DNA of 64,000 nt from the IMG/VR virus record IMGVR_UViG_3300048924_000151, positions 1-64,000 of that record, one strand, 5' to 3'. This DNA is from a virus. The first letter of the stretch is position 1; every line of letters begins with the position of its first letter. The notes below the pieces were generated by a model that was not told the DNA's origin, ran no database searches, and saw nothing but the letters and a program-made list of their open reading frames with translations. Below are positions 28,863-43,348 of this stretch, piece by piece. The position numbers and the translations under genes were made by a program.

Positions 28863-29095
28863 TTGAACCTCTCAGCGAAATATTCGCCGCAGATTTTCAT
28901 CGCGGTCAAGTAACACTTCGCTCTAGTTCTAACATCCTCCGGCTGCACCTTAGCACACAGGGATCGGACTAAAATTGGCGAGACTTCCTCGCCTGATGTT
29001 TTCTTTAGGATATGTGCGATGTATTGTTCAAGCATGGCTTTCCCGTTCGCTGTCTTAAGCGTTTTTGAATCCACTGCTAAGATTGAGACCCACAT
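28859..29095 (-). CDS. Small hypothetical protein, first gene of the minus-strand block
   Basis: A 78-residue protein, helical (GKAMLEQYIAHILKKTSGEE; VRTRAKCYLTAMKICGEYF). An ATG 21 codons in (29032) has GGGAAAGCC in front and could be the real start. It faces the divergent control region and is likely among the first transcripts of the minus strand. No family recognised. Confidence 0.5.
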   Translation of the reverse strand: MWVSILAVDSKTLKTANGKAMLEQYIAHILKKTSGEEVSPILVRSLCAKVQPEDVRTRAKCYLTAMKICGEYFAERFK

Positions 29096-29374
29096 CCTTA
29101 GCCTAGCAGCGCCCCGCGAAGGCTAGTCCGCATCCCTACCCGGCGCAGAATTGCCGGATAGGGACTAGGAGGGCTAGGCTAGGCGTGGGACCGCTAGGGT
29201 ACGCCTTATATGCGGCGAAAGCGAGACCCTATATCTAGTAGGCTTATCAACGACTTAGCACTAGGTGGCCCGCTCAACCCAGAATTTGACGGATTAACCT
29301 CAGAAAGTGTTTCCTTTTCCCGTTGCGGTGGCGCTTTATATGCATACCGGAACGAACCGGAACGGAGCAAGACG
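29096..29374. promoter_or_regulatory. Divergent intergenic control region
   Basis: The 279 bases separate the two transcription blocks. There is an inverted repeat TCCCTACCCGGC/GCCGGATAGGGA at 29133-29164 (11 of 12 pairs, 8-base loop), flanked by CTAGTCC and GGACTAG that can pair in an alternative way. CTAG-containing words repeat (GGCTAGGCTAGG). A TTATATG sequence at about 29205 resembles the repeated plus-strand promoter element, a full copy of which is at 29327-29374. Confidence 0.55.
29327..29374 (+). promoter_or_regulatory. Repeated promoter/leader element, copy 1
   Basis: GGTGGCGCTTTATATGCAT is followed by CCGGAACGAACCGG, a 4-bp stem hairpin, then CGGAG and the ATG of the next gene. 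If TTTATA is the -10 box, the transcript would start at about the hairpin. Four further copies occur at 31151, 31453, 35529 and 39225. Confidence 0.6.
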
Positions 29375-29707
29375 ATGACCGACGTTAAGACCGAATTGAT
29401 GAATACCCTGCGTTCGAACATCGCGCTTTGCGCGGAATTGCAGAATTCGCTGGGTTACGTCCTTATTACCGATGATTGCAGCCTTTGCCTTATGGTCGAT
29501 GGCAACCAGTACCGTCTCGCAGGCATTAAGTTTGCCCTTGCCTTCCAGACCCGCAAGACTGCCGAACGCATCCGCGACCTGTGGAACGCACAGCCGCAAG
29601 TGCAGACAACCCCGTCCACCCGTATCGACGTTCTTACGATGGAAGCCGCTGCAATCCGGACCGCAGAGCGGGCGCAGGAATTGCTGAGCATCTTGGAAGC
29701 CGCCTAA
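29375..29707 (+). CDS. Hypothetical early protein
   Basis: A 110-residue protein with a helical start (VKTELMNTLRSNIALCAELQ), a short strand pair (YVLITDDCSLCLMVDGNQ) and a long C-terminal helix (AAAIRTAERAQELLSILEAA). It is the first gene of the plus-strand block, directly behind the repeated promoter/leader, so it is probably made early and in quantity. No family recognised. Confidence 0.65.
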   Translation: MTDVKTELMNTLRSNIALCAELQNSLGYVLITDDCSLCLMVDGNQYRLAGIKFALAFQTRKTAERIRDLWNAQPQVQTTPSTRIDVLTMEAAAIRTAERAQELLSILEAA

Positions 29708-29715
29708 GCCCCTCC

Positions 29716-29739
29716 GGCGCAGGGGCGATCCCCTGCGCC
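29716..29739 (+). terminator. Hairpin after the first early gene
   Basis: Perfect 10-bp arms GGCGCAGGGG/CCCCTGCGCC with a CGAT loop, 8 bases past the stop. TTCCCT follows, a weak T tract, so it may be a partial terminator. Confidence 0.55.
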
Positions 29740-29769
29740 TTCCCTGCCCTCGCACAAAGGACCACCGTC

Positions 29770-30213
29770 ATGCAGACCAAGCTTTTCCGTAAGACTGCCG
29801 CCGACCTTCTCCGCATGGTTATCCGCCGCGATGCGCGCGAGAAAGGGTTCCCCGGAACGAAGCGCCGCCGCATCTATCGCATGGCGTGCGAATACGCTGC
29901 GGAGGCTTCTGAGAATTGCAGCAATCCTGCCGAATACCGGATGTGGGGATTGGTCGAAACCTATTTGCACGATGCATGGACGAAAGCATGCATCCATGCG
30001 AACCGGGACACCGTTACCGTGCTGGCGTTCGCCTTCGAAGATCGCATTGAACGCATCAGGTTCAAGAACGCCGACGCGGCGCGCAACGCGGCAAAGTTCC
30101 GGTACGGTTCCGAAGTCCGCCAGATTTGGATTGAGCATACCGTCGCGGTTCCGTTCGTCCAGTGCGAACGCATACCGCAGGATTGCAGCGCACGGATGCT
30201 TAGGAGGGGTTAG
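29770..30213 (+). CDS. Hypothetical early protein
   Basis: A 147-residue basic protein. Features: KTAADLLRMVIRRDAREKGF, then a helix pair (RIYRMACEYAAEASENC, YRMWGLVETYLHDAWTKAC) and a strand-rich end with IWIEHTVAVPF. AAAGGACCACC precedes the ATG. No family recognised; basic charge could mean nucleic-acid binding. Confidence 0.6.
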   Translation: MQTKLFRKTAADLLRMVIRRDAREKGFPGTKRRRIYRMACEYAAEASENCSNPAEYRMWGLVETYLHDAWTKACIHANRDTVTVLAFAFEDRIERIRFKNADAARNAAKFRYGSEVRQIWIEHTVAVPFVQCERIPQDCSARMLRRG

Positions 30214-30223
30214 GCAGGCCGAA

Positions 30224-30257
30224 ACGGGCAATTGCCCGTCGCAGCGTAAGGCGCTGC
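30224..30257 (+). repeat. Two tandem hairpins between early genes
   Basis: ACGGGCAATTGCCCGT (30224-30239) is a perfect 16-base palindrome. GCAGCG-TAAGG-CGCTGC (30241-30257) follows at once. They lie in the 85-base gap before the next gene and may mark RNA processing or partial termination. Confidence 0.5.
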
Positions 30258-30298
30258 CTGACGATGGCCGTCGGTTATCTAGCATAGAGGTTATCGAA

Positions 30299-30703
30299 AT
30301 GTCCTATACCGATATCGCAACTGCGAACGGGATCACCATTCGCCATCTGCATTCGCCCGATAGGATGAAAACTTTCGGGTATCTTACCGGAAGGATTCAG
30401 CCGGACAATTCCCTCTCCGACGCAATTCCCCATGCCCATAGGCTCCAAGCAGAGCGCGCATTGGGATGCTATTCGGTCGTGGACCGGATCAACGATTTTG
30501 AAATCCGCAAGCTTCGCGGCATCTCCGGCGTGCTGGGGTATGCGGCGGCTCATCCTGACGGGACCACGGTTTACCACTCTACACTTCTCGCCGCACGGCA
30601 GGCGGCAGGCTGGAAGCCGGTTCCGAGCAAGTCGCTGACTTTGCCCAAGACCGCATATATCCAGAATACGCCCGGCTATCGCGCGGACGCGCAGCGAAAA
30701 TGA
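30299..30703 (+). CDS. Hypothetical early protein
   Basis: A 134-residue protein starting MSYTDIATANGITIRHLH. The middle (GYLTGRIQPDNSL, AHRLQAERALGCYSVVDRI) and end (TVYHSTLLAARQAAGWKPVP) have mixed alpha-beta pattern. Start follows a GAGGTTATCGAA ribosome site. Ends in an ATGA overlap. No family recognised. Confidence 0.6.
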   Translation: MSYTDIATANGITIRHLHSPDRMKTFGYLTGRIQPDNSLSDAIPHAHRLQAERALGCYSVVDRINDFEIRKLRGISGVLGYAAAHPDGTTVYHSTLLAARQAAGWKPVPSKSLTLPKTAYIQNTPGYRADAQRK

Positions 30704-30918
30704 AGAAGGGAAGCGGCAAGTTCCCTAAGACCAACGAGGGGGGTGGACTGACTTCCGCCCCCTCTACGGAACCGGAGGAAACGGTTCAGCAGCGCATCGC
30801 CCGCCAGCGCGCCGCACGGGAAGCGCGGGACGGTAGCCCCGAAGAAATCCGGGTGGCTAAAAAGGATTTCTGGAAGACCAACGAAGGGATGAAGAAGTTT
30901 TGGCCGCGTAGCCGCTAG
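30700..30918 (+). CDS. Small charged protein with repeated KTNEG motif
   Basis: A 72-residue charged protein. FPKTNEGGG near the front and FWKTNEGMKKFW near the end are an internal repeat, with a helix rich in Gln/Arg/Ala between (QQRIARQRAAREARDG). Coupled to the previous gene. Function unknown; disordered or nucleic-acid-binding in character. Confidence 0.55.
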   Translation: MKKGSGKFPKTNEGGGLTSAPSTEPEETVQQRIARQRAAREARDGSPEEIRVAKKDFWKTNEGMKKFWPRSR

Positions 30919-30931
30919 ATCGCCCTAGGAA

Positions 30932-31000
30932 GGCCGCAGGCGCGTTTTACCCCGGAGAGGCATCTTAGATCATCTTTCGGAAAATAACGCGCCTGCGGCC
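30932..31000 (+). ncRNA. Covarying 69-nt hairpin, copy 1
   Basis: Perfect 15-bp arms GGCCGCAGGCGCGTT (30932-30946) and AACGCGCCTGCGGCC (30986-31000) around a 39-base loop, with a short inner pair (CCGGA with TTCGG). Copy 2 at 39009-39077 has the same total and loop length and two compensated base-pair changes. A promoter follows in both. Whether it acts as RNA or DNA is unknown; a Rho-independent terminator is unlikely as no T run follows. Confidence 0.65.
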
Positions 31001-31038
31001 ATTTCACAGATTTTACTATCATAACTACACTTTCTGGG

Positions 31039-31068
31039 TTTACTTACCCAAATTGGCCATGCTAAGAT
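31039..31068 (+). promoter_or_regulatory. Sigma70-like promoter after hairpin copy 1
   Basis: -35 TTTACT (31039-31044), 18-base spacer, extended -10 TGC-TAAGAT with hexamer at 31063-31068. The same arrangement, with identical spacing, follows hairpin copy 2 at 39103-39132. Start of transcription would be near 31075. Confidence 0.6.
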
Positions 31069-31150
31069 AGGGCGATGCCTAACTGACAAGAATGCCTTCC
31101 TACAGATAAGTGATTAATTGCCTCAGATTTTTGTACCCGGTTCGATGCAA

Positions 31151-31199
31151 AGTGGCGCTTTATACGTCTACCGGCGCATGGCCGGAACGGAGACGGAAG
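31151..31199 (+). promoter_or_regulatory. Repeated promoter/leader element, copy 2
   Basis: AGTGGCGCTTTATACGTCTA, then the hairpin CCGGC-GCATG-GCCGG (31171-31185), then GGAACGGAGACGG and the ATG. The loop differs from copy 1 while the arms stay able to pair. Confidence 0.6.
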
Positions 31200-31424
31200 A
31201 TGATTAAAGTTTGCACGATTTCTTACGAAGAACGCCACGGCAAGCTTCCTCGTGGGGCTTGGACGCAGGGCTGGACGTTCGAATTCCGCGCTTTCTCTAC
31301 CGCCTCCGCGCGAACCTTCCCCGGCACCTATAGCGAGGCCCGCAAGTCGGCAATCGCTTATGCAAAGTCCAACGGATTTAGCGACGTCATCCTTTATCCT
31401 GCGACCCATCCTATTCAGAAATAA
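31200..31424 (+). CDS. Small hypothetical early protein
   Basis: A 74-residue protein: short strand (MIKVCTISYEERHGKL), a GWTFEFRAF strand, a helix (SEARKSAIAYAKSNGFSD) and a final VILYPATH strand. The plan resembles the 52-residue protein encoded next (31501-31659), which also ends in a helix and short strand. Sits directly behind promoter/leader copy 2. Function unknown. Confidence 0.6.
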   Translation: MIKVCTISYEERHGKLPRGAWTQGWTFEFRAFSTASARTFPGTYSEARKSAIAYAKSNGFSDVILYPATHPIQK

Positions 31425-31452
31425 TTCAAATAACTGTTTTAATTCTCATCCC

Positions 31453-31500
31453 GGTGGCGCTTTATATCGCTACCGGGATTAGCCGGAACGGAGACGGACG
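31453..31500 (+). promoter_or_regulatory. Repeated promoter/leader element, copy 3
   Basis: GGTGGCGCTTTATATCGCTA, hairpin CCGG-GATTAG-CCGG (31473-31486), GGAACGGAGACGGACG, then ATG. It lies only 29 bases past the previous stop, so it drives the following small gene separately. Confidence 0.6.
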
Positions 31501-31659
31501 ATGACCTATACGGTCTGGAGCAATGGCGGACGCCACGAATATATCGCCCGCGTCGATGGGCAGATTGTGGCCCGTTCCGGCATGATTTATTCCAGCCGCA
31601 AGCAGGCAATCGCCGCGCTCATGCGCGATCCCGCAGTCGTCGCATTTCAGAAAGCATAA
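31501..31659 (+). CDS. 52-residue hypothetical early protein
   Basis: The frame begins MTYTVWSNGGRHEYIARVD and continues with a helix (SSRKQAIAALMRDPAVV). It has its own promoter/leader and a good CGGAG site. The strand-strand-helix plan is like that of its upstream neighbour. Function unknown. Confidence 0.6.
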   Translation: MTYTVWSNGGRHEYIARVDGQIVARSGMIYSSRKQAIAALMRDPAVVAFQKA

Positions 31660-31663
31660 GCAG

Positions 31664-31924
31664 ATGGCCAAGATCACAGCACGCCGCATTCACCCGCTTA
31701 AGCGTATGCCGATGTACCCGACAAACGGCCTTATGCCTACGCTGCACATGGTCAAGCTTGAGGGCAGCAAATGCTGGCGGCGCGTTTATGAGCGATATGA
31801 AACGAAGGCACATTGGCCTGCCGGTTCGAAGCAGGGATTTATTCCAGTCGTTAAAGACGACAACGAGATGCGCGACCTCACCGCTGTAGAGCGCAGGCAC
31901 ATCGGATACCGGCTCGATGTTTAA
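31664..31924 (+). CDS. Small basic early protein
   Basis: An 86-residue basic protein (MAKITARRIHPLKRMPMYP; KCWRRVYERYETKAHW; ERRHIGYRLDV). Starts 4 bases after the previous stop. Its last codons overlap the start of a broken MFNISYRK frame at 31917. No family recognised. Confidence 0.55.
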   Translation: MAKITARRIHPLKRMPMYPTNGLMPTLHMVKLEGSKCWRRVYERYETKAHWPAGSKQGFIPVVKDDNEMRDLTAVERRHIGYRLDV

Positions 31925-31946
31925 TATCTCTTATCGCAAGGAATAA
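31917..31946 (+). pseudogene. Truncated copy of the MFNISYRK gene start
   Basis: The first 24 bases of this 30-base frame, including the flanking GATGTTTAA overlap, match the start of the gene at 32168 except for one silent change; then a stop follows (MFNISYRKE). It looks like the left edge of a duplication or of an insertion of the 31951-32175 gene. Confidence 0.5.
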
Positions 31947-31950
31947 GATC

Positions 31951-32175
31951 ATGGCAGGGCTTCCAAATAAATTGCAAATTCAAAAACTCATCGCTACTGG
32001 CAAAGTAGCAGACGTTGAAGACGAAGGCATGGACGAAGGCCGATTTTTTGTCCATCTCAAGCCTCCATATTCTTATGATGAAGGGAATGGAACGCAACGG
32101 ACCAAATCGTTTGGTAATTATCGCGATGCCATTTCACTTATCAAAAAAGTAGTAGCTGAGAAAGACGATGTTTAA
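31951..32175 (+). CDS. Small hypothetical protein
   Basis: A 74-residue protein (NKLQIQKLIATGKVADVEDE; RFFVHLKPPYSYDEG; NYRDAISLIKKVVAEKDDV). Strand-helix pattern. AAGGAATAAGATC precedes the ATG. It sits between a broken and an intact copy of the MFNISYRK start, so it may be a recent insertion. No family recognised. Confidence 0.6.
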   Translation: MAGLPNKLQIQKLIATGKVADVEDEGMDEGRFFVHLKPPYSYDEGNGTQRTKSFGNYRDAISLIKKVVAEKDDV

Positions 32176-32278
32176 CATCTCTTATCGCAAGGTCGGTGGC
32201 CTCCGGTTCCTTAAGATTGGACGCCTCAATTTCTGCTTTTCCGTTAGCAGCGAATTCCGCCCGATAAAGGGGACATAA
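32168..32278 (+). CDS. 36-residue conserved-type microprotein (MFNISYRK)
   Basis: The protein runs MFNISYRKVGGLRFLKIGR, then LNFCFSVSSEFRPIKG. I recall proteins of this kind with an IGRLNFCFSVS core in many phages; its function is not known to me. The start overlaps the previous stop. Copies of its first codons are at 31917. Confidence 0.6.
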   Translation: MFNISYRKVGGLRFLKIGRLNFCFSVSSEFRPIKGT

Positions 32279-32343
32279 ATCTGCGCTTGCGGTCTACTTA
32301 GCGGTGGACTACGTTAGGCAGCATTAAGGCATTGGAGACTGCG

Positions 32344-32535
32344 ATGACAGGTAACAGCGAAGCATACCACCGGCATTATGCCGATCTTGATTTGATTAAC
32401 GGCGAGCCGCACCGCTTCGACAATCCTGAGTATATGCGTAAGCTGCATGAATTGTGCAGCGAGACGCTTGCGAAGGCCGTAGAGGCGCGTAAGTCGATTG
32501 CCCAGCATTCGCTGCCGGGGGATATGAAGTGGTAG
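32344..32535 (+). CDS. Small hypothetical protein
   Basis: A 63-residue helical protein (SEAYHRHYADLDLINGEPHR; YMRKLHELCSETLAKAVEAR). TTGGAG lies 7 bases upstream of the ATG. No family recognised. Confidence 0.6.
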   Translation: MTGNSEAYHRHYADLDLINGEPHRFDNPEYMRKLHELCSETLAKAVEARKSIAQHSLPGDMKW

Positions 32536-32924
32536 CATATAGGCTCACTACGGCCGCCGCATTCGGTCTTATCGCATGCGTCGTTGCCTCTCCGCTTGCT
32601 GCCGTTCTCGCGCCGGAGAGCACCACCCCCGGCTATGCGGTTTCCTGTGGCAGGCTGTCGTCTGCGGAATGCGATGCGACGTTGCGCACGGCTGCGACGG
32701 CAGGCTACCTAGCGGCACTCTCTGCGCCGTCGCGGTGCGGACGGTGGTACGAATATAGCGGGGCTGCGCTTGCCGCCTATGCCCTAGCAGGCGACATCAA
32801 TCGCATTGGGCTTGCATCCTTTAACCTAGCGTTTACGCAAGTGGCGCTATTGTCCGAGACGGCGCTAATCCGCGCTTGCGCTGGTGCCGCCAGCGCAATC
32901 CCTTCCGCAATCAAGAGGAAATAG
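32529..32924 (+). CDS. Small membrane or exported protein
   Basis: A 131-residue protein with a hydrophobic N-terminus (TTAAAFGLIACVVASPLAAV), then Cys 40, Cys 48 and a later Cys, and Ala-rich hydrophobic helices (AALAAYALAGDINRIGLAS). GTG start overlaps the preceding stop. Topology is uncertain; could be an exported protein with disulfides. Confidence 0.5.
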   Translation: MVAYRLTTAAAFGLIACVVASPLAAVLAPESTTPGYAVSCGRLSSAECDATLRTAATAGYLAALSAPSRCGRWYEYSGAALAAYALAGDINRIGLASFNLAFTQVALLSETALIRACAGAASAIPSAIKRK

Positions 32925-32928
32925 AATC

Positions 32929-33063
32929 ATGTTTCGTAAGAAGATGGTACGCACAGAGCTCAGCTACGCCATTTCGATGTTCGCGCTGAAGGTATTCGAT
33001 TATACCTGCTTCTCGATTTTCATCTATACCTGCTATCAACTCTGGAAGGTTCTTCCGAAATGA
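32929..33063 (+). CDS. 44-residue membrane protein
   Basis: The chain has a basic start (MFRKKMVRTELSY) and a hydrophobic Tyr/Phe-rich helix (ISMFALKVFDYTCFSIFIY), ending in a short polar tail. GAGGAAA precedes the ATG, and its stop overlaps the next start. One membrane pass. Confidence 0.6.
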   Translation: MFRKKMVRTELSYAISMFALKVFDYTCFSIFIYTCYQLWKVLPK

Positions 33064-33401
33064 GCATTTGGAAGCGCGCCCTTGCGCTGCTATCGAAAGA
33101 GCCGACGCAATGGGCAGTGCCGAGCCTGCTACATGCGCCTCTAGACATGCAGTGGCTTATCGATACGATGGGCGAAAATGTTGAACGCCCGCGCGTCGGT
33201 GATCTTATAATTGAGCTGGTCGCAGACAGCATGGCGGTTTGTGTAAAGCATGATATCCGTTATCGCGTTGTACAGAGCAATTCGCCATATCCCAATTCGG
33301 TTTGCGCCGAGAACTGCGATAGCGCCCGTGCGCATATCCTGCATATCTTCTATATGCGGCGACATAAGACGTTGCCGCGCGTCTGGTTTCTTGCGTCATG
33401 A
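33060..33401 (+). CDS. Hypothetical protein
   Basis: A 113-residue protein (MSIWKRALALLSKEPTQWAV; DMQWLIDTMGENVERPRVGD; LIIELVADSMAVCVKHD). Mixed alpha-beta. Coupled to both neighbours by short overlaps. No family recognised. Confidence 0.55.
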   Translation: MSIWKRALALLSKEPTQWAVPSLLHAPLDMQWLIDTMGENVERPRVGDLIIELVADSMAVCVKHDIRYRVVQSNSPYPNSVCAENCDSARAHILHIFYMRRHKTLPRVWFLAS

Positions 33402-33628
33402 TCGGCCTAGGGAAAGCGACTGTAACGTTCAGGGTCCAATGCACTTGCGACGACTGCGGAACGCATGCACCTAGCTCGCAGAGCAACGTTATCGATACAG
33501 GAACAATCGCGATTAGCGATCTTGGATCGATGATTGTTGTTCTTATGGAAGCGGCGTTCGTGCAGCCTCCGGTCGGATGGGCGGTCTATGGCCGCTATAG
33601 CTACAAATGCGACAAGTGTTTGACATGA
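33398..33628 (+). CDS. Small zinc-ribbon-like protein
   Basis: A 76-residue protein with CTCDDC near the front and CDKC at the end, the two halves of a zinc ribbon, and a hydrophobic strand-helix between (SMIVVLMEAAFVQPPVGWAV). ATGA coupled. Function unknown. Confidence 0.6.
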   Translation: MIGLGKATVTFRVQCTCDDCGTHAPSSQSNVIDTGTIAISDLGSMIVVLMEAAFVQPPVGWAVYGRYSYKCDKCLT

Positions 33629-33807
33629 AAATAGACCTAAACGACAACGATGCCAGAATGCTTATGCTGCACATTGACTATGTGCTTACTAGCAATGCCG
33701 CATCTGAAGATTGGTCTATCCGCTTAGTAGAAGGGCAATTTGAAGTTCTTCTAAACGTATTAGACCAAATAAACTATCAACTTCCAAACAAGAAAGAGCT
33801 ATCATGA
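33625..33807 (+). CDS. Small hypothetical protein
   Basis: A 60-residue protein (MKIDLNDNDARMLMLHIDYV; FEVLLNVLDQINYQLPNKK), helical. ATGA overlap at both ends. No family recognised. Confidence 0.55.
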   Translation: MKIDLNDNDARMLMLHIDYVLTSNAASEDWSIRLVEGQFEVLLNVLDQINYQLPNKKELS

Positions 33808-34226
33808 GCATCTCTTATCAAGGCAATATCGATCTGCGCGAAGTCGCTGACCAGTTGGTCGGTTCGGAGCAACTAGATGAATTCTTCAACGTGCTTGGCG
33901 ATGCATGCAATGAGAATGCATTTCTGCCGGAAGATGTCGCAGAGTTCTTTGGCGACAATATCGGTAGGCGGCTGGACGACGATGGGCGCATGTTCCTCAT
34001 CGCGCTCGCCAAGTACACCATGCAACAATTCCCGACCGACTTTGTGCCGACTATCGACGCGATGCCCGGCATGACGTCAGTAGTCAACGCCATCGCTGCG
34101 GTCGAAAAAGTGCAGGAATGGACTAGCAGCGAAAGCGGCACGATGTTCCACGTTGACGGGAAGACGCATGAGGGGGGCTGGTACGCTACCCGCGATGTCG
34201 TTAAAGCGCTTACGGACCTCGCATGA
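33804..34226 (+). CDS. Hypothetical acidic protein
   Basis: A 140-residue acidic helical protein. Its first residues MSISYQGN echo the MFNISYRK start seen at 32168, maybe a shared translation-initiation segment. ATGA overlaps on both sides. No family recognised. Confidence 0.55.
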   Translation: MSISYQGNIDLREVADQLVGSEQLDEFFNVLGDACNENAFLPEDVAEFFGDNIGRRLDDDGRMFLIALAKYTMQQFPTDFVPTIDAMPGMTSVVNAIAAVEKVQEWTSSESGTMFHVDGKTHEGGWYATRDVVKALTDLA

Positions 34227-34702
34227 TCCCCCGGCAGGCTATCGGCCCTTTCCACCAAATCTATACATGGGTCCGCGACGACGGCAAGAACTTCAACATA
34301 TCCACTCATCATCTGATCGAGTGGATTAATAAGACGAAACCGGCGCACGATTTCTTGCCAATCGATAAATCTTTGGTCGATGGGTTTATCGCTAGTAACT
34401 CGATCAGCGTTGATCGTATACGGCAGATGATGATGATGGATAACCCCCCTTCTGATCCGATTATCATGTGCCTTACCGGACGGCAGAATATCAACGGCAT
34501 CCCGGGGCCGGAGGGGATGTTGGTAGATGGTCGGCATCGATATGCGCTGTATGCCGCTTGCGGTTTAAAGCTCATCCCCTGCTACGTCATCAAGAAGCTA
34601 GACTGGCAGCCGTTCCGCATATCCGGAATGCCAAGGTTGACGAAACAAGGGCTGGTTGAAGTGCCTGTTTTAAACCATATCATGAGCAAGTTTCAGTCAT
34701 GA
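34223..34702 (+). CDS. ParB/sulfiredoxin-like fold protein
   Basis: A 159-residue protein. The segment DPIIMCLTG...LVDGRHRYALYAACGLKLIPCYVI has the ParB/Srx signature: a strand, a Gly-rich loop, DGRHR and a helix, then a closing strand. Such folds include nucleases, CTP-dependent ParB and sulfiredoxin. Stand-alone copies occur in phages. The N-terminal half (FNISTHHLIEWINKTKP) is not recognised. Coupled on both sides. Confidence 0.65.
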   Translation: MIPRQAIGPFHQIYTWVRDDGKNFNISTHHLIEWINKTKPAHDFLPIDKSLVDGFIASNSISVDRIRQMMMMDNPPSDPIIMCLTGRQNINGIPGPEGMLVDGRHRYALYAACGLKLIPCYVIKKLDWQPFRISGMPRLTKQGLVEVPVLNHIMSKFQS

Positions 34703-34893
34703 TTATAGATCGCCCGCATCGTCTTGCGCGTAGGACTAAGCCAAAGCTGAATGTTCTCCATTACAATCGCGCCAAAGTCGTCACCTGCCCATACTGCGGA
34801 GCAGTCCCGAATAACAGTTGCATCCGTATCGATGGCAAGCCAAGCAGGCCACATCGTGAACGGGTGATTGAATATGAAAGGAAACTGCCGTGA
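34699..34893 (+). CDS. Small zinc-finger protein
   Basis: A 64-residue basic protein with CPYCGAVPNNSCIRIDGK followed by PHRERV. The pattern C-x2-C, then C, then H with a following Arg matches phage zinc fingers thought to bind DNA. ATGA overlaps at both ends. Confidence 0.65.
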   Translation: MIIDRPHRLARRTKPKLNVLHYNRAKVVTCPYCGAVPNNSCIRIDGKPSRPHRERVIEYERKLP

Positions 34894-35270
34894 CATATTG
34901 TCTAGAGCTTCGCAGCACTGCGAATTGGGAGGGCGATATCCGATATCGCGCTTATACGAAGTCTCTTAAGACCGTTGAGCGATTCAAAACTATAAGCAAA
35001 ATTCAATTCAGCGATAGTGGTCACGGTATCGTTCCAGTAGTTAGCGAAGACAAGTTCAATCGTAAGCCGACTATCCGAACCCTTTGGGAATATGTCGAAG
35101 CGCATTATGAACAGTGCGATGCGAAAGCGAAGCGCGATAAGCGCGCAATTCAGTCCGCCACTCGATCTGCGTTGCAGATGCAATTGGACTTGGCGCGCGA
35201 GGAAATCGCACGACTGACGGAAGAACTTGAGCGGTACAAGAAGTTTGGGCCGGGCAGCAAGGATTATTGA
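34890..35270 (+). CDS. Hypothetical protein with C-terminal coiled coil
   Basis: A 126-residue protein. Residues 1-75 look alpha-beta; the end is a charged coiled coil (LQMQLDLAREEIARLTEELE). The next gene product is also a coiled coil of similar length, so the two may pair. ATGA coupled to the zinc finger gene. Confidence 0.55.
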   Translation: MTYCLELRSTANWEGDIRYRAYTKSLKTVERFKTISKIQFSDSGHGIVPVVSEDKFNRKPTIRTLWEYVEAHYEQCDAKAKRDKRAIQSATRSALQMQLDLAREEIARLTEELERYKKFGPGSKDY

Positions 35271-35271
35271 T

Positions 35272-35469
35272 GTGATACAGCGTAGTCGGATTGCATTGCG
35301 GATCGAGGCGCAGGAGGCCCGCGAAGAATTGATAGCATCTCGCGCCTTGCTACTTGCTACAATTGACGAACTAACAAAAGACAACGTCGCTTTAATGGCG
35401 ACGATAAAGAAGTTGACGCTGGATAATTCGCGCCTGCTCCGAGCGCGACGTGTAGGAAAGAAGGCCTAA
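35272..35469 (+). CDS. Small coiled-coil protein
   Basis: A 65-residue protein starting with GTG at 35272, AAGGA 8 bases upstream. Almost all one charged helix (RIEAQEAREELIASRALLLA; LMATIKKLTLDNSRLL) with a basic end. Follows the previous stop by 1 base. No family recognised. Confidence 0.55.
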   Translation: MIQRSRIALRIEAQEAREELIASRALLLATIDELTKDNVALMATIKKLTLDNSRLLRARRVGKKA

Positions 35470-35500
35470 GTTATTTCTAGATCACTTAGGTTTATGATCC

Positions 35501-35579
35501 TACAAATAGTTGTTCTAATCATTTTTGAAGTGGCGCTTTATATGCATACCGGAACGAACCGGCGCAACGGAGAACGACG
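35501..35579 (+). promoter_or_regulatory. Repeated promoter/leader element, copy 4, with upstream 14-mer
   Basis: AGTGGCGCTTTATATGCAT (from 35529) with hairpin CCGGAACGAACCGG (35549-35562), CAACGGAGAACGACG, then ATG. Upstream is TACAAATAGTTGTT (35501-35514), which recurs at 35863-35876 before the next gene at almost the same distance from GTGGC. Confidence 0.6.
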
Positions 35580-35819
35580 ATGAAGAACGAGTTTAAAGGC
35601 ATGTACGTCGTGGCGACTGTCACGACCAACGAGCGCAAGATGGGCACTCACGGACGCAAAGTCGTCGGCGCAATCCTGCGCGCAGGCCCGGCCGGTATCA
35701 AGGTTGACGATCTCAAGCCGGACCCGAACGGCAATCTGAACAAGCATATCGCTTGGGAGCTTGCGCGCGGCCGGGTTAAAGTGCTGGCCCGCGCGCCGCG
35801 CGCAGCGAGGCAGGGTTGA
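35580..35819 (+). CDS. Small basic protein related to the following H1-like protein
   Basis: A 79-residue basic protein. Its end (GAILRAGPAGIKVDDL; LNKHIAWELARGRVKVLARA) resembles the N-terminal domain of the next gene product (DKIIAHGKNGASYEVLLKEG; SGDIAWDVLHGKVIASI), pointing to shared ancestry. Behind promoter/leader copy 4 and followed by a terminator, so it is a one-gene unit. DNA binding is likely but not shown. Confidence 0.6.
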   Translation: MKNEFKGMYVVATVTTNERKMGTHGRKVVGAILRAGPAGIKVDDLKPDPNGNLNKHIAWELARGRVKVLARAPRAARQG

Positions 35820-35824
35820 TAGCA

Positions 35825-35855
35825 GGTGGCAGACTGCCAAGTCTGCCACCCTTTT
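35825..35855 (+). terminator. Rho-independent terminator
   Basis: Perfect 11-bp arms GGTGGCAGACT/AGTCTGCCACC, GCCA loop, followed by CTTTTC, 5 bases past the stop of the 79-residue gene. The best intrinsic terminator in this part. Confidence 0.7.
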
Positions 35856-35862
35856 CTGCGAA

Positions 35863-35902
35863 TACAAATAGTTGTTGCCGCATATCCTGCGTGGCCTATA
35901 AA
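35863..35902 (+). promoter_or_regulatory. Promoter before the H1-like gene
   Basis: TACAAATAGTTGTT (35863-35876) as at 35501, then GTGGCC and TATAAA (35897-35902). TTGCCG (35875-35880) with a 16-base spacer could serve as -35. A divergent relative of the repeated element without the CCGG hairpin. Confidence 0.5.
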
Positions 35903-35952
35903 AGCGGGACTTAGTTTAAGGCGAACCCCTGAAAAGCCCGAAAGGCAAAATC

Positions 35953-36849
35953 ATGACAACCGCTACCAATACCACTCCCACGACTTCCGCCGCAACGGTG
36001 GGCCGCAAGTCGAATTTCTCCGGCCACATCATCGCCGCTGTCGAACTCAAGAACCACCGTCGTCCCGGTTCGTTCGGCTACTTCTCGATGGACAAGATCA
36101 TCGCGCACGGCAAGAATGGCGCCAGCTATGAAGTCCTTCTCAAGGAAGGCGTTCGGTCCGGCGATATCGCCTGGGACGTTCTGCACGGCAAGGTCATCGC
36201 ATCAATCGACGCGGAAGCCCAAGCCAAGGCTATGGCGGCCGCTGCCGAGAAGGTCGCTGCCGAGAACGCTGCGAAGGAAGCGAAGGTGAAGGAGAAATCC
36301 GACGCTGTCGCCGCGAAGGTCGCTGCGAAGGCTGCGCAGAGCGCGGAGAAGGAAGCCGCGAAGGCCGCGAAGATCGAAGCAACGGCTGCTGCGAAGGCCG
36401 CGAAGCTGGAAGCTGGCGGCGCGAAGGCTGCTGAGCTTGCCGCTGCGAAGGCCGCGAAGGCCGAGGCCCTTGCCGCAACGAAGGCTGCGAAGGCCGAGGC
36501 CGCTGCGGCGAAGAAGGCAGAAGCCGAAGCCACCAAGGCCGCGAAGGCCGCCGCTGCCGCTGCCGAGAAGGCTGCGAAGGCCGAGGCCGCTGCGGCGAAG
36601 AAGGCAGAGACCGAAGCCGCCAAGGCTGCGAAGGCCGCTGCGGAAGCCACTGCGAAGGCGGAGAAGCTTGCCGCCGACAAGGCCGCTGCCGATCAGGCCG
36701 CTGCCGATTTGAAGGCCAAGATCAAGGCCGACAAGGAAGCTGCCGACGCCATCGCCAAGGCCGACAAGGACGCCAAGGCCCGTGTCGCTGCCGAGAGCAA
36801 GGCCGCGAAGGACAAGCAGAAGGCTGACGCTGCCGCGAAAAAGAAGTAA
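35953..36849 (+). CDS. Ala/Lys-rich H1-like protein with N-terminal domain
   Basis: A 298-residue protein. Residues about 15-80 are a compact domain (GHIIAAVELKNHRRPGSFGY; SGDIAWDVLHGKVIASI). From about residue 85 to the end it is a lysine/alanine/glutamate repeat (units such as KAAKAEAAAAKKAEAEA), similar to TolA helices or bacterial H1-like proteins. The repeat is visible in DNA as GCGAAGGCCGAG-like words. Such proteins can bind DNA or form a long rigid helix. Own promoter and terminator suggest high expression. Function not proven. Confidence 0.6.
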   Translation: MTTATNTTPTTSAATVGRKSNFSGHIIAAVELKNHRRPGSFGYFSMDKIIAHGKNGASYEVLLKEGVRSGDIAWDVLHGKVIASIDAEAQAKAMAAAAEKVAAENAAKEAKVKEKSDAVAAKVAAKAAQSAEKEAAKAAKIEATAAAKAAKLEAGGAKAAELAAAKAAKAEALAATKAAKAEAAAAKKAEAEATKAAKAAAAAAEKAAKAEAAAAKKAETEAAKAAKAAAEATAKAEKLAADKAAADQAAADLKAKIKADKEAADAIAKADKDAKARVAAESKAAKDKQKADAAAKKK

Positions 36850-36858
36850 CAACGAATA

Positions 36859-36883
36859 GCTGATCACGGATGTACTGATCAGC
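36859..36883 (+). repeat. Hairpin downstream of the H1-like gene
   Basis: GCTGATCA/TGATCAGC, 8-bp stem and 9-base loop, just past the stop codon and before the terminator at 36892. Confidence 0.45.
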
Positions 36884-36891
36884 GAGACGAA

Positions 36892-36919
36892 GGGCAGGCT
36901 TAATACACCTGCCCTTTTT
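36892..36919 (+). terminator. Rho-independent terminator
   Basis: GGGCAGG/CCTGCCC arms with a 9-base loop followed by TTTTTC. Ends the H1-like transcription unit. Confidence 0.75.
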
Positions 36920-36993
36920 CTTACCCATCTTAAAGTAAACCAGTATCAACAGAACTGGTTCCCTTTGCGATGCAAACCTCAACCGGGGGCGAT

Positions 36994-37194
36994 ATGATTA
37001 GAGTGTGGATAGTGCCGAAGTCCACCCCCAATGCGGATGCGACTGCGCATTCGATTGAGGTGGACGTGCCGAACGAAACCCGGTTCAGCGATGCGGTCGA
37101 TGTGCTTATGCCGCATGTGCCGGATGGATACTACATCGTCAAAATCGAAAGGAACGGAGACTATGAATCTAAAGGTAGAGCTAACGGAAGCTGA
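36994..37194 (+). CDS. Small hypothetical protein
   Basis: A 66-residue protein (MIRVWIVPKSTPNADATAHS; EVDVPNETRFSDAVDVLMPH; YYIVKIERNG), a small alpha-beta unit. GGGGGCG lies just ahead of the ATG. An in-frame ATG 8 codons upstream is possible. Its end overlaps the next gene by 32 bases. Confidence 0.5.
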   Translation: MIRVWIVPKSTPNADATAHSIEVDVPNETRFSDAVDVLMPHVPDGYYIVKIERNGDYESKGRANGS

Positions 37195-37348
37195 GATCAT
37201 GCTTGCTATCGCGGCATGGATCGAAGCTCAGACCGGAGTTGCTGTCCCTGTCAAGGGCCTCTTTGTTGAGACCAAGTCCAAGCAGAATTACAAGAGCGAG
37301 TGGGAGGTAGCGGCCATTCGCGTTTCTTGCAATGTGCAAAGGCCGTGA
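37163..37348 (+). CDS. Small hypothetical protein
   Basis: A 61-residue protein starting MNLKVELTEAEIMLAIAAWI and ending with a strand (EWEVAAIRVSC). AAAGGAACGGAGACT precedes the ATG. The pattern of a helix after EAEI and a later strand recurs in many small phage proteins; no name known. Confidence 0.6.
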   Translation: MNLKVELTEAEIMLAIAAWIEAQTGVAVPVKGLFVETKSKQNYKSEWEVAAIRVSCNVQRP

Positions 37349-37438
37349 ACTGGTTGCATAGCGATAGCCCGCGCTGGGCAAGCCTCCGCTTCGTCCTGCG
37401 CTCCATCTTCACCCCGAAACGATTAGGAACCACCAGCG

Positions 37439-38428
37439 ATGGCATACGGCAAGGAATACGAAGCGAAGTCGAATCACCAGATGATTCGCGACGGAGTTGA
37501 ACAGCCGATATATAAGATCGGCAAGTACAACGTCCAGATCAATTATAGCAAACGGATTGTGTATGTATCGGAGCCGGATCGGCCCGAACGTATCGATCAG
37601 AGCATTTCGCTTATGGATGGCGTACTCAACGTTGATTTTTCTTTCATAGTGGAAGAAGTCCTGCGTAAATGCGATCCAATCGAGATTGCACGCGGCATGT
37701 GCGAAGATGCCGATGTTCGTGAGCACTTCATTGAATCGCTCGCTGAACGCTGGTCGCAGGATAACGTTGGCGATGCAGAGCGCCGCAAGTTCCTGACCAA
37801 GGTAGGCTGCGCCGTCAACGAAATCACAGTTGACCGACTTGCCGATACAATGCGAAAGTGGGAATACGAATTCTGCCGACGCGCATATGTCGATGAGCAT
37901 GTCAGCAATATCAACCGCACGCTGCGCGAGTTGAATGTAATGGTACAGGGGCCTAGCACTTATAGCTCTAGCGTACCGGGCGAATGGGAGCGCGGTCCTG
38001 ACGTTCTGTTGCAGATGCGACGGCTGGACGAACGGACGACTGATGCCGATGGCAAGTCTATCCCCGGCCCTGTTGCTATTACTGGGCAGGCTTGGGAGCA
38101 GGCGCGCACTTACTGGCGTGACGAGATCGGCAGGCTATTCCCGCCGCCGCTTGCACCGATGCCGGTGGCGTTCGATGCATTCGCAATTATTCAGGGTGAT
38201 ATCGATACCCTGCGCAACGAGCGAAGCGGCAGCACGGGAAGCGAGTTTGTTACCGTATCGCAGAAAGCGCTGGACGCTGTACTCTCCAAGATCGATGACA
38301 TGCGCGGCATGAAGCCGCCGAAGCCTCCTGTATCGTTCGGGGAATTCGCTGGCGGCGCTGATGCTATATTGGATAGCGCAGAGACGCCCGCTGCTTCGAT
38401 TGACTCCGGCGATGATATCCCGTTCTGA
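37439..38428 (+). CDS. Unknown protein with an SSB-type C-terminal tip (DDIPF)
   Basis: A 329-residue protein. N-terminal half: strand-rich start (YKIGKYNVQINYSKRIVYVS) then helices. Middle: helices with FCRRAYVDEHVSNINRTLRE. C-terminus: a flexible acidic stretch (SIDSGDDIPF) ending in the same residues as bacterial SSB tails, which dock helicases, polymerase subunits and repair proteins. No OB-fold was recognised. AGGAACCACCAGCG precedes the ATG. It may act at replication forks. Confidence 0.6.
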   Translation: MAYGKEYEAKSNHQMIRDGVEQPIYKIGKYNVQINYSKRIVYVSEPDRPERIDQSISLMDGVLNVDFSFIVEEVLRKCDPIEIARGMCEDADVREHFIESLAERWSQDNVGDAERRKFLTKVGCAVNEITVDRLADTMRKWEYEFCRRAYVDEHVSNINRTLRELNVMVQGPSTYSSSVPGEWERGPDVLLQMRRLDERTTDADGKSIPGPVAITGQAWEQARTYWRDEIGRLFPPPLAPMPVAFDAFAIIQGDIDTLRNERSGSTGSEFVTVSQKALDAVLSKIDDMRGMKPPKPPVSFGEFAGGADAILDSAETPAASIDSGDDIPF

Positions 38429-38643
38429 TGGCACGCTCAGCAGAATATAACCTTGTCGAAAACATCCTGAGTGCGACAAGCGTTAGCAAAACGCCATTCT
38501 CAGGATCGCTCGATGAGCGCGCGGTATCGCGCCTAATCAAGGCGTGCAAAGACCGGCAGAAAGTCGCCGCCATCAAGGAAGTCCGCGCCCTCGCATGCTG
38601 CGGACTTCGCGAAGCCAAAGACCTCTATGAGAAGTATTTCTGA
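38428..38643 (+). CDS. Small protein with ribosomal L7/L12-like C-terminal motif
   Basis: A 71-residue protein. Residues about 45-71 read KVAAIKEVRALACCGLREAK then DLYEKYF; ribosomal L7/L12 has the same K-V-x-x-I-K-x-V-R, G-L-x-E-A-K-D-L pattern in its factor-binding domain. The N-terminal half is different. Coupled to its neighbours (TGATG overlaps). It may mimic or bind to translation factors, or be a fold without that role. Confidence 0.6.
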   Translation: MARSAEYNLVENILSATSVSKTPFSGSLDERAVSRLIKACKDRQKVAAIKEVRALACCGLREAKDLYEKYF

Positions 38644-38795
38644 TGAACATCGAACTGCTCACGCTTGCCGACGAAGCAAAAGAGATGCTCAAACATGCTA
38701 ACACGGAGAACTTCGTGATTTGGCAGGCAGAGCAGTTCATAAAGAAAGTTGAACCCATACTTCGGCAACTGGCATGGAAGGAAGACGACGAATGA
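38643..38795 (+). CDS. 50-residue helical protein
   Basis: A helical, charged protein (NIELLTLADEAKEMLKHANT; QAEQFIKKVEPILRQLAWKE). Overlaps both neighbours by a few bases. No family recognised. Confidence 0.6.
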   Translation: MNIELLTLADEAKEMLKHANTENFVIWQAEQFIKKVEPILRQLAWKEDDE

Positions 38796-39016
38796 GCGCG
38801 ACGATTACAAGCGACGAATGCGATGCCGTGCTAGCGCAGGGCAGAGCAGCACGCCGGGCGAATGCCAACCTGAAAATCCCGCCCCCGGAGTTGGATGCTT
38901 TCCTCGCGAACTACTGGCGCGTTGGCTGGATGCGGGAACACGACGAAATCGCCCTGACGGGGGGTCGAACGCCAGCGGCTCACGATAGCCCATTGCTGGG
39001 CCTGCGGAGGCCGTAA
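38792..39016 (+). CDS. Small hypothetical protein
   Basis: A 74-residue protein (ITSDECDAVLAQGRAARRAN; LDAFLANYWRVGWMREHDE). Its last bases run into the left arm of hairpin copy 2 (39009-39077). ATGA coupled. No family recognised. Confidence 0.55.
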   Translation: MSATITSDECDAVLAQGRAARRANANLKIPPPELDAFLANYWRVGWMREHDEIALTGGRTPAAHDSPLLGLRRP

Positions 39017-39077
39017 GCGCGTTTTAATCGTTCCGGGTACTATGCCCCATAATTCCGGAAATAACGCGCTTACGGCC
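39009..39077 (+). ncRNA. Covarying 69-nt hairpin, copy 2
   Basis: Perfect 15-bp arms GGCCGTAAGCGCGTT (39009-39023) and AACGCGCTTACGGCC (39063-39077), 39-base loop with an inner TTCCGG/CCGGAA pair. Against copy 1 (30932-31000), two base pairs differ and both are compensated on the other arm. A promoter of the same type follows 26 bases later. Confidence 0.65.
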
Positions 39078-39102
39078 ATTTTCACTTTCTTCAAGTTGTG
39101 GG

Positions 39103-39132
39103 TTTACTCGTGTCAATTTTTCATGCTAAAAT
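39103..39132 (+). promoter_or_regulatory. Sigma70-like promoter after hairpin copy 2
   Basis: -35 TTTACT (39103-39108), 18-base spacer, extended -10 TGC-TAAAAT with hexamer at 39127-39132. Same layout as 31039-31068, also followed by GGGCGATGCCTAA in both. Confidence 0.6.
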
Positions 39133-39156
39133 CGGGCGATGCCTAAATGAAGGATA

Positions 39157-39172
39157 TCAATCCTAGGATTGA
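39157..39172. promoter_or_regulatory. Perfect 16-base palindrome, possible operator
   Basis: TCAATCCTAGGATTGA lies about 25 bases after the -10 box of the preceding promoter and before leader copy 5. A dimeric repressor or another regulator could bind; no second copy was seen. Confidence 0.4.
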
Positions 39173-39224
39173 GCGGGCCAAAAAGAAACCAAATCCGTTC
39201 AAATAATGCTTCCTTATTCGGATT

Positions 39225-39284
39225 GGTTGGCGCCTTATATGCCTACCGGAACGAACCGGTTGGGTCCTTTGAAGGAATTAGATC
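39225..39284 (+). promoter_or_regulatory. Repeated promoter/leader element, copy 5
   Basis: GGTTGGCGCCTTATATGCCT, hairpin ACCGG-AACGAA-CCGGT (39245-39260), then GAAGGAATTAGATC and the ATG. Here the arms pair over 5 bp. Confidence 0.6.
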
Positions 39285-40244
39285 ATGTCGCACGAAGTCG
39301 AAACGATTGCATACGTTGGCGAAACCCCTTGGCACGGTATCGGCACGCGCTGCGCCGATGGCATCTCCACCGACGATATGCTGGTGGCCGCCGGTCTGGA
39401 CTGGACCGTTAAGCAATACCCCATGCAGGTAACGCTGGAGGATGGCAAGTCCATCGATGTAGAAGGCAAGCGCGCCCTGATCCGTTCGAAGGATCATAAG
39501 GTGATGAACGTTTCGTCCGATAGCTGGACGCCCGTGCAGAATGCCGATCTCATCGGCTTTATGCGCTCTTACGTCGAAAGCGGCGGCGCGAAGCTGGAGA
39601 CGGCCGGAAGCCTGCGCGACGGTTCGGTTATCTGGGGCCTCGCGAAACTGGATCGCTCCTTCGAAGTATCAAAGAAGGACAAGGTTCAGGGCTACCTCCT
39701 GATCACCGGCTCGCACATCGTCGGCGTATCGACCAAAATCCGCACCGTTGCAACCCGCGTCGTCTGCATGAATACAATGCGGATGGCGGAACGCGAAGTC
39801 GGCAGTGTCTGCTACAAGCAGAACCACCTTGCCGAATTCGATGTGAATGCGGCCAAGATTGCGGTCGCAACTGCGAACGAAGAATTGGCGCAGGCGGAAA
39901 GCCGCTACAAGAAGATCAAGAAGCTGAAACTCAGCATCGAAGATGCGGTCCAGAAGCTTTACTGGAAGGTTCTTCCGGACAACGTCTATTCGACCGAAAG
40001 CGTCAAGAAGCTTCTCGCCGCGCCGGAAACTCAGTCGGCTCGCATGCAGGCCCTCATCGATAGCTACAAGACCGCGCCGGGCGCTGACGTCGGAACCGGC
40101 TGGGGCGCGCTGAACGGCTTCACGCACTGGACTGATCATAAGTTCGGCAACAGCGGCGAGGCTCGCATGCATCGCGTTACGTTCGGTGACTTCTCGCGCG
40201 AGAAGGATGCGATGGAGAAGACCCTTCTGGAATTGGCGGAGTAA
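39285..40244 (+). CDS. DUF932 phage/plasmid-like protein
   Basis: A 319-residue protein with the DUF932/TIGR03299 features: AYVGETPWHGIGTRC at the front, MLVAAGLDWTVKQYPMQV, an RSDHKVMNVSSD-type loop, FVVSKKDK-like and LLITGSHIVGVSTKIRTVAT strands, and VVCMNT. This family is common in phages and plasmids; its biochemical role is not settled. It is driven by promoter copy 5 and hence may be made strongly. Confidence 0.8.
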   Translation: MSHEVETIAYVGETPWHGIGTRCADGISTDDMLVAAGLDWTVKQYPMQVTLEDGKSIDVEGKRALIRSKDHKVMNVSSDSWTPVQNADLIGFMRSYVESGGAKLETAGSLRDGSVIWGLAKLDRSFEVSKKDKVQGYLLITGSHIVGVSTKIRTVATRVVCMNTMRMAEREVGSVCYKQNHLAEFDVNAAKIAVATANEELAQAESRYKKIKKLKLSIEDAVQKLYWKVLPDNVYSTESVKKLLAAPETQSARMQALIDSYKTAPGADVGTGWGALNGFTHWTDHKFGNSGEARMHRVTFGDFSREKDAMEKTLLELAE

Positions 40245-40326
40245 TGTTGCCACTGCACTCTGCCGATGTGGTCGCCCGGCAACTCCCCCTTGCCGGGCGA
40301 CTTCCTCCAACCTAGAAAGAACCACA

Positions 40327-40980
40327 ATGCCAATCTCAGAAAAGTCCGATCCGAACCAGTGGCCCGACCGCTTCCTTGTGATACTTGCGCATGCGATGCA
40401 TCGCGCTGAGCTCGCAGAGAACGCTGGCGAGACGCCCGATTACAACATCCTTCCTCCGCCGCCTGAGGCTGACAAACGCGGAGATGTGGATATATCTATC
40501 AACGCTATGTTACACATCGCCGTTTTGGAATTGGTACCCGGCGACGAAGGCGATGCATATTTTCGCGGCAAGCAAAAGGCCGTTATAACGAAGCTTGCGC
40601 AGCAACTGATGAACGGTGAATTTCGCGGCATGGACCCGACGCCGGATATTCCTTTCGCAGCGCGCGATAGCGCAGCGCCGGGACGCGTTGCATCCTACAG
40701 CGAGCCGCGCGCCCCGAAGGCCCCGCGCGAGCCTAGAGCAGAGCGCCCGGCGAGCGACGGCCCGAAGGCCCCGCGCGCATCCGCCCTAGGCGGCAAGACC
40801 CTGCACAGCCTATGCGCCCCCGGCGTTAACCCGCGCGCTGCGGGATCGCATGGGCATAAGTCATTCCAGATTATTCTGGATAGCCCCGGCATCGAACACA
40901 GCGCATACCTCGCAGCCGGGGGGCGACAGGCCGATCTGGCCTATAACGTAACCAAGGGCTTCGTTGAAATCCGCGACTAA
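40327..40980 (+). CDS. Hypothetical protein with Pro/Arg/Ala linker
   Basis: A 217-residue protein. Residues 1-115 are helical (FLVILAHAMHRAELAENAGE; INAMLHIAVLELVPGD). A linker rich in PKAPREPR-type repeats follows, then a small C-terminal domain (SFQIILDSPGIEHSAYLAAG; AYNVTKGFVEIRD). AAAGAACCACA precedes the ATG. No family recognised; two-domain layout with a flexible linker suggests a tether. Confidence 0.6.
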   Translation: MPISEKSDPNQWPDRFLVILAHAMHRAELAENAGETPDYNILPPPPEADKRGDVDISINAMLHIAVLELVPGDEGDAYFRGKQKAVITKLAQQLMNGEFRGMDPTPDIPFAARDSAAPGRVASYSEPRAPKAPREPRAERPASDGPKAPRASALGGKTLHSLCAPGVNPRAAGSHGHKSFQIILDSPGIEHSAYLAAGGRQADLAYNVTKGFVEIRD

Positions 40981-40993
40981 AGGAACCACACTC

Positions 40994-41530
40994 ATGAAGA
41001 AGATGCGATTTGATACAAGCAAGCCGATTGCGACCTCGCTTGAGTTCTTCAACGCGGCAATGAACAGGGAGGTAAAACCCCCCAATCCGATAGGGGAGAA
41101 GGTCGGCGGGTTGTACCTGAACATCGGCGCAGGGACGAAGGAATTCCCGTGGGCAGTATCGATGCAACGACCGCAATGGAACGCGCCGGACCCGTTGCCC
41201 TACAGCGATAATGTTATCGATGGTATCGTGGCTCTGCATTTCTTTGAGCATCTCAGCGGGCGAGATGTACCGATCGTTCTCGCGGAATGCGCCCGCGTGC
41301 TTAAGTCGGGTGGCCTGATCAACATCGCCGTTCCGCATCGTGCAGGCGGAATGTCCGTGCAGGACTTGGATCATAAGTCGTTCTTCATGGAACGAACTTG
41401 GGACACATTGCTGAACAACGAATACTATCAGACGTTCGGCAATGAAATCCCGCTCTACATAAATTACAACTTGATCATGGGCGACGAAGAACGTACCCTT
41501 ACGGTATTCACCCAGATGCGAAAGCCTTGA
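40994..41530 (+). CDS. SAM-dependent methyltransferase-like protein
   Basis: A 178-residue protein with class I features: GLYLNIGAGTKEFP (motif I), WNAPDPLPYSDNVIDGIVAL then FFEHL (motif IV area), and ECARVLKSGGLINIAVPH. No DNA-methylase catalytic motif (NPPY/DPPY) is visible, so the substrate could be sugar, protein or small molecule. AAAGGAACCACACTC precedes the ATG. Confidence 0.7.
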   Translation: MKKMRFDTSKPIATSLEFFNAAMNREVKPPNPIGEKVGGLYLNIGAGTKEFPWAVSMQRPQWNAPDPLPYSDNVIDGIVALHFFEHLSGRDVPIVLAECARVLKSGGLINIAVPHRAGGMSVQDLDHKSFFMERTWDTLLNNEYYQTFGNEIPLYINYNLIMGDEERTLTVFTQMRKP

Positions 41531-41598
41531 TAGATACACGCCTCAGATTGTTAGCGCCCGGCGCGGCGAACGTGCTATAAACTAACGTATCCTGCGGA

Positions 41599-43347: not shown

Positions 43348-43348
43348 C

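Follow-up and report, generated by a model that had tools for sequence, protein, structure and literature searches.

Two hairpins of 69 nucleotides (nt), each followed by a promoter-like site, were analyzed in a window of viral DNA, the whole 64,000-nt stretch under study, which comprises bases 1–64000 of the 67,284-base record IMGVR_UViG_3300048924_000151. We propose, with a probability of roughly 55%, that hairpin and promoter-like site together form a cassette at the boundary between two co-directional early transcription units, in which the hairpin would end or pause the upstream transcript and the promoter would start the next one. Each hairpin stands at the end of a + strand gene, ahead of a promoter-like site and a further + strand gene, and this position supports a boundary. 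The features of the two cassettes were as follows.

30700–30918, + strand: gene upstream of cassette 1, no family match.
30932–31000, + strand: hairpin 1, 15-bp stem and 39-nt loop, 13 nt past the stop codon of gene 30700–30918.
31039–31068, + strand: promoter-like site 1, TTTACT-15-TGC-TAAGAT, a consensus match only.
31069–31082, + strand: shared block NGGGCGATGCCTAA after promoter-like site 1.
31200–31424, + strand: gene downstream of cassette 1, no family match.
38792–39016, + strand: gene upstream of cassette 2, weak match below the cut-off to ribosome modulation factor.
39009–39077, + strand: hairpin 2, 15-bp stem and 39-nt loop, holding the stop codon of gene 38792–39016.
39014–39016, + strand: TAA stop codon of gene 38792–39016, in frame, in the left arm of hairpin 2.
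39103–39132, + strand: promoter-like site 2, TTTACT-15-TGC-TAAAAT, likewise a consensus match only.
39133–39146, + strand: shared block NGGGCGATGCCTAA after promoter-like site 2.
39285–40244, + strand: gene downstream of cassette 2, encoding a DUF932 protein.

At both positions we recovered the 69-nt inverted repeats with perfect 15-bp stems and equal 39-nt loops that a first-pass annotation of this DNA had described. Between the copies, 13 of 15 positions are identical in the left arms and 13 of 15 in the right arms, whereas the loops share 19 of 39 positions, largely at the ends near the stem. Among the 26 perfect inverted repeats of at least 10 bp with loops of 3–80 nt in the window, these two were the longest; in five simulated first-order Markov sequences, the maximum lengths were 11, 11, 10, 10, and 10 bp. 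About 1.57 Mb of comparison loci contained 14 entries with stems of at least 13 bp and loops of 20–70 nt. RNA folding gave z-scores of −6.7 and −6.2, with none of 200 shuffles equally stable, and a second, weaker helix was predicted within each loop, beyond an internal loop. The whole 67,284-base record holds exactly two copies: a covariance model built from them detected no further copy there, and a search of the window for a third, diverged copy gave nothing above background. Overall, the hairpins are real, well-formed, and probably functional.

The arms differ between the copies at stem positions 6 and 8, and each change is matched on the opposite arm, as the first-pass annotation had also noticed. 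Stem positions 6–8 read CAG in copy 1 and TAA in copy 2. Since the TAA stop codon is needed in the left arm of copy 2, both stem changes are explained. No gene is apparent in the right arm of copy 2, yet the pairing change is present there. Given two changes in the left arm, exact compensation by two random changes in the right arm would occur in about 1 of 945 cases, a value calculated post hoc. That the right arm followed the stop-codon change favors kept pairing, as far as two sequences allow. The earlier statement that selection for pairing is evident is too strong for two sequences. The coincidence of compensated changes with a stop codon (CAG to TAA) is a new observation here, and it provides a natural case in which the pairing of a stem is preserved while one arm acquires a stop codon.

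The motif TTTACT-15-TGC-TAARAT occurred exactly twice, against 0 expected from 100 shuffles. It had previously been written as TTTACT-18-TGCTAARAT; the 18 nt count up to TAARAT, with TGC following after 15, and a variant with 17–19 nt ahead of TGC gave 0 matches. The promoter had also been placed at the same distance from both hairpins, but we measured 38 nt from the hairpin end to TTTACT in copy 1 and 25 nt in copy 2. The association of the hairpins with a downstream promoter-like site, as judged from the letters, is nevertheless supported. When the promoter block was searched in viral contigs, 0 matches were obtained. The next gene begins about 200 nt beyond each hairpin. The promoter spacing differs by 13 nt at a constant hairpin size, a combination that suits an RNA element and not a fixed DNA complex.

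In the proposed boundary, RNA polymerase arriving from the upstream genes would transcribe the hairpin just where the last of them ends. The stem, perfectly paired and GC-rich, would end or pause the upstream transcript and leave its 3′ end protected. An extended −10 promoter of host type, 25–38 nt farther downstream, would then start the next unit. The homologous cassettes lie 8,077 bp apart and flank about 8 kb of early genes, and they may be places of gene-block exchange. Most likely, this is a known general kind of arrangement in a poorly known phage. A more far-reaching version appears doubtful, namely that the boundary hairpin, lacking a proper U-tract, ends or trims early transcripts in a factor-dependent way, that its sequence changes quickly between phages while its place is kept and a stop codon is absorbed with compensation, and that the cassettes are portable units flanking exchangeable early blocks.

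Relatives were collected by protein, using the best 80 of 591 matches for the DUF932 protein, the best 80 of 153 for TerL, and the best 80 of 577 for the helicase. The hairpin model was searched in 40 sources and the covariance model on 18 records, which covered part of these loci. In the record IMGVR_UViG_3300025759_000082 (G008), whose terminase is 51% identical to that of the window, three gaps share one layout: stop codon, 9–10 nt, hairpin, 17 nt, extended −10, leader, and gene. The extended −10 sequences are TGATATGAT, TGATATAAT, and TGATATACT, and the perfect stems measure 13, 9, and 12 bp. The G008 hairpins are unrelated in sequence to those of the window; among the three copies, one base pair is compensated, and one pair is broken in one copy. 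Together with the co-change at the stop codon, these three analogous cassettes add to the support for kept pairing and for a link to a downstream promoter-like site. The G008 hairpin pattern was found in 97 stretches of viral contigs, with G008 the only record recognized and the others not read individually.

In Agrobacterium phage Milano, a hairpin of 11–12 bp lies 13–19 nt ahead of TTGAC at two of nine copies of a repeated promoter, and TTTTTC follows one of these hairpins. Hairpins of at least 9 bp within 150 nt upstream of promoter-like sites were present at 2 of 2 sites in the window, 4 of 13 in G008, and 2 of 9 in Milano, with random-position rates of 7%, 5%, and 10%, respectively. The upstream range was set to 150 nt after a range of 110 nt had left both hairpins of the window undetected (0 of 2). 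Since the hairpins of the window and of G008 had drawn attention first, the corresponding p-values are post hoc. One of the four G008 entries lies outside the three cassettes and may be due to chance. The G008 promoter list was taken from the reverse strand of loci L178, L179, and L102 only, leaving matches in L177 and on the plus strand of L102 uncounted, and a site within the terminase gene (L102 10876) was excluded.

Other elements of the relatives were recorded separately. The G008 promoter-like sites (L102 3350–5500 and L178–L179, minus strand) carry CCGRGAT..ACC at −35, then the extended −10 TGATAYNNT. The nine Milano promoter copies (L010 8757–20264) carry a palindrome, ACAAAT..ATTTGT, between −35 and −10, and several are followed by a leader hairpin with a likely ribosome-binding site in its 3′ arm and compensated changes. 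In Aminobacter phage Erebus (L011 5932–5991), a hairpin with a 13-bp stem and a 34-nt loop ends 9 nt before the DUF932 gene; as it adjoins the start codon, it was not counted as a cassette. A single intergenic hairpin of Yong-L2-223 (L008 17341–17395; 14-bp stem, 27-nt loop) was not counted either. The one viral-contig match to the window's hairpin pattern, L006 (15 bits, E 3.3), has no equal perfect hairpin and was judged to be chance. The primase as a query for relatives gave 0 matches, and no early region was recognized in the TerL relatives at 54–65% identity (L097–L100), all of them short fragments. Megablast of bases 30000–40000 against 50,697 phage records gave no match, and no close relative with a matching early region was found by megablast, pattern, and primase searches.

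Several results weigh against the proposed boundary. Both hairpins are followed by weak T-tracts, ATTTCACAG and ATTTTCAC, and their d'Aubenton-Carafa scores are −33 and −26 (with the formula as applied here); the G008 hairpins are nearly without a T-tract and score −57, −46, and −68. The hairpin sequence was not found in any other record searched, and its pattern had 0 matches in genome contigs. The hairpin excess in Milano is weak, with p values of 0.21 (not significant) for stems of at least 9 bp and 0.034 for at least 11 bp. With only two copies, formal covariation tests are without power, and in a two-row shuffle control, powerless at two sequences, the observed value was reached in 142 of 500 shuffles. 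Copying from arm to arm at replication would yield the identical compensated pattern. The overlap of the 3′ arm with the −35 position in G008 is also compatible with a DNA site. Conservation of pairing in relatives had been put forward in the first-pass annotation as a test of the hairpins: the covariance model matched 1 of 18 records, the phage's own, whereas the layout recurred in some relatives.

The window hairpins resemble intrinsic terminators in that a GC-rich hairpin stands right past the stop codon, a position that fits a terminator, but they differ in the weak T-tract, the long loop, and the negative score. A U run directly after the stem was absent at both hairpins, and a scan for short-loop terminators did not report the site. 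In view of the weak T-tract and the negative score, the hairpin may work together with a factor, cause pausing, protect the 3′ end, or serve as an RNase III site. If it works without a U-tract, it would represent a route of phage transcript ending that terminator predictors overlook. The same weak T-tract is in keeping with processing or protection without termination, in which early transcription would read through, an RNase III-like enzyme would cut the stem or the stem would block 3′ exonucleases, and the promoter would add downstream mRNA. The intergenic RNase III sites of phage T7 offer a parallel. The 15-bp stem with its inner helix across an internal loop and the location between co-directional genes would suit such processing as well, but no processing site was recognizable from the sequence, and we consider this alternative possible rather than probable. 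Of the functions suggested in the first-pass annotation, that of a regulatory RNA or of a target for an RNase, placed between genes, is possible.

The arm-to-arm copying mentioned above could account for perfect stems and compensated changes without selection, and just two copies would be expected if the cassette had been duplicated once and the hairpin had little function. However, the loop length stayed at 39 nt despite loop letters identical at 19 of 39 positions, and the G008 hairpins, different in sequence, occupy an equal place relative to stop codon and promoter. Palindrome correction of this kind is therefore rated as quite unlikely. Also unlikely, if slightly less so, is a DNA site beside the promoter, either an operator or activator site with a dimeric protein bound to both arms or a repeat extruded as a cruciform. 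Promoter-like sites are indeed nearby, and the G008 3′ arm coincides with a motif that is also present at −35 of promoter-like sites without a hairpin, so that a DNA-level role may exist in G008. In the window, by contrast, the two copies have promoter distances that are 13 nt apart, the arms co-vary where a binding site should have conserved its letters, and a stop codon lies within the stem of copy 2. A 39-nt loop disfavors a cruciform, which makes the cruciform suggested in the first-pass annotation unlikely.

A last group of explanations comprises a small RNA acting in trans, an antisense target, a packaging signal, and the end of a mobile element. The stable fold would agree with these, and recombination could occur between the two homologous copies, which are 8,077 bp apart. 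No Rfam family was found in the window at the gathering score, and at E values up to 10, matches within 28900–44500 were all below the threshold, with none on the hairpins or on five leader copies described below. Both hairpins lie between co-directional early genes, 15–24 kb away from the terminase gene, which speaks against the packaging signal that had been suggested before, and no mobile-element gene was found among the examined proteins between the copies. This group of explanations is very improbable.

The proposed boundary cassette can be compared with known ones. In T4-like phages, promoter early stem loops (PeSLs) were reportedly described by Arbiol in 2010 and Comeau in 2014. The cited part of one paper describes them in T4-like phages as "composite conserved promoter-terminator motifs" and assigns them a role in gene shuffling (PMC4503421); the PeSL work also appears in the reference list of PMC5931544. 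Like PeSLs, the window cassettes join a stem-loop to an early promoter (here assigned by consensus) between genes, in multiple copies flanking early-gene blocks. Unlike them, they belong to a phage of about 67 kb whose terminase is kin to those of Milano and Yong-L2-223 and which is not T4-like; they number two, in contrast to the high density in shuffling regions of T4-like phages; and their hairpins have a 39-nt loop and a weak T-tract. Given the similar layout but different lineage, loop size, T-tract, and copy number, we file them as a variant rather than a member of the PeSLs. The finding extends cassettes of promoter and stem-loop to a little-studied group of phages related to Agrobacterium phage Milano.

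A motif of the archaeal tailed virus HGTV-1 was likewise compared with PeSLs, according to the passage cited (PMC3950731). It also combines an inverted repeat with a promoter-like (TATA-like) box, repeated in one genome, but it is archaeal, stands ahead of most genes of one genome half, and is likened here by description, not by sequence. Extended start-associated sequences (ESAS) of cluster K mycobacteriophages, in the portion of the source used, are inverted repeats tied to translation starts (PMC3203893). They too recur within a phage genome as inverted repeats with a spacer, placed ahead of genes; as described there, these 17-bp repeats are imperfect and immediately precede a 13-bp start-associated repeat, whereas the window has perfect 15-bp stems after an upstream stop codon, about 200 nt from the next start. 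For phage 7-7-1, a Milano relative, the section consulted reports predicted promoters, four terminators, and two stable stem-loops (PMC3517404).

The window phage is contractile-tailed, with sheath, portal, major head protein, and terminase genes on the left side. Its terminase is 58% identical to those of Synechococcus phages Ssp-JY38 and Yong-L2-223 and 43–44% identical to those of Agrobacterium phages Milano, OLIVR4, and 7-7-1. To the right of about 29.3 kb, the likely genes, many of them small, lie on the + strand. Gene 38792–39016 encodes 74 amino acids, and its start lies in a four-base overlap with the preceding open reading frame.

Arrays of type II hammerhead ribozymes were found close before the early genes of relatives identified via DUF932 and the helicase. 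Five exceeded the Rfam cut-off in G001 (L017), five in G014 (L290), and one in G002, and G008 had two matches below the cut-off. Their locations were as follows.

L017, 2246–4445: hammerhead matches.
L290, 6202–8441: hammerhead matches.
L182, 12375–12433: hammerhead match.

A match at E 0.001 or better was present in 4 of 17 records and one over the cut-off in 3 of 17, whereas the window's record had 0 matches to type II hammerheads (RF02276), with positive controls in the relatives. Type II hammerheads are known from phage intergenic regions, as the cited excerpt states (PMC3088659). Both they and the window hairpins are repeated structured RNAs (in the window, putatively) at early gene boundaries, but a hammerhead core is absent from the 69-nt window hairpin. 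It seems that several structured RNAs serve as punctuation in phages of this kind.

Other repeats were observed in the window. Short-loop hairpins directly follow stop codons elsewhere in the early region, at 29716, 35825, 40271, and 36890, which also speaks for the proposed boundary reading; only that at 36890 has a long T-tract. A leader, TGGCGCYTTATAYNNNTACCGG..CCGG, occurs in five copies on the + strand (29329, 31153, 31455, 35531, and 39228), about 45–60 nt before start codons, and may be a promoter or a 5′ UTR element; it had no Rfam match, and its pattern gave 0 matches in genome contigs. At 25755–25842, inverted and direct copies of GTTTAGCCCC / GGGGCTAAAC are clustered between minus-strand genes.

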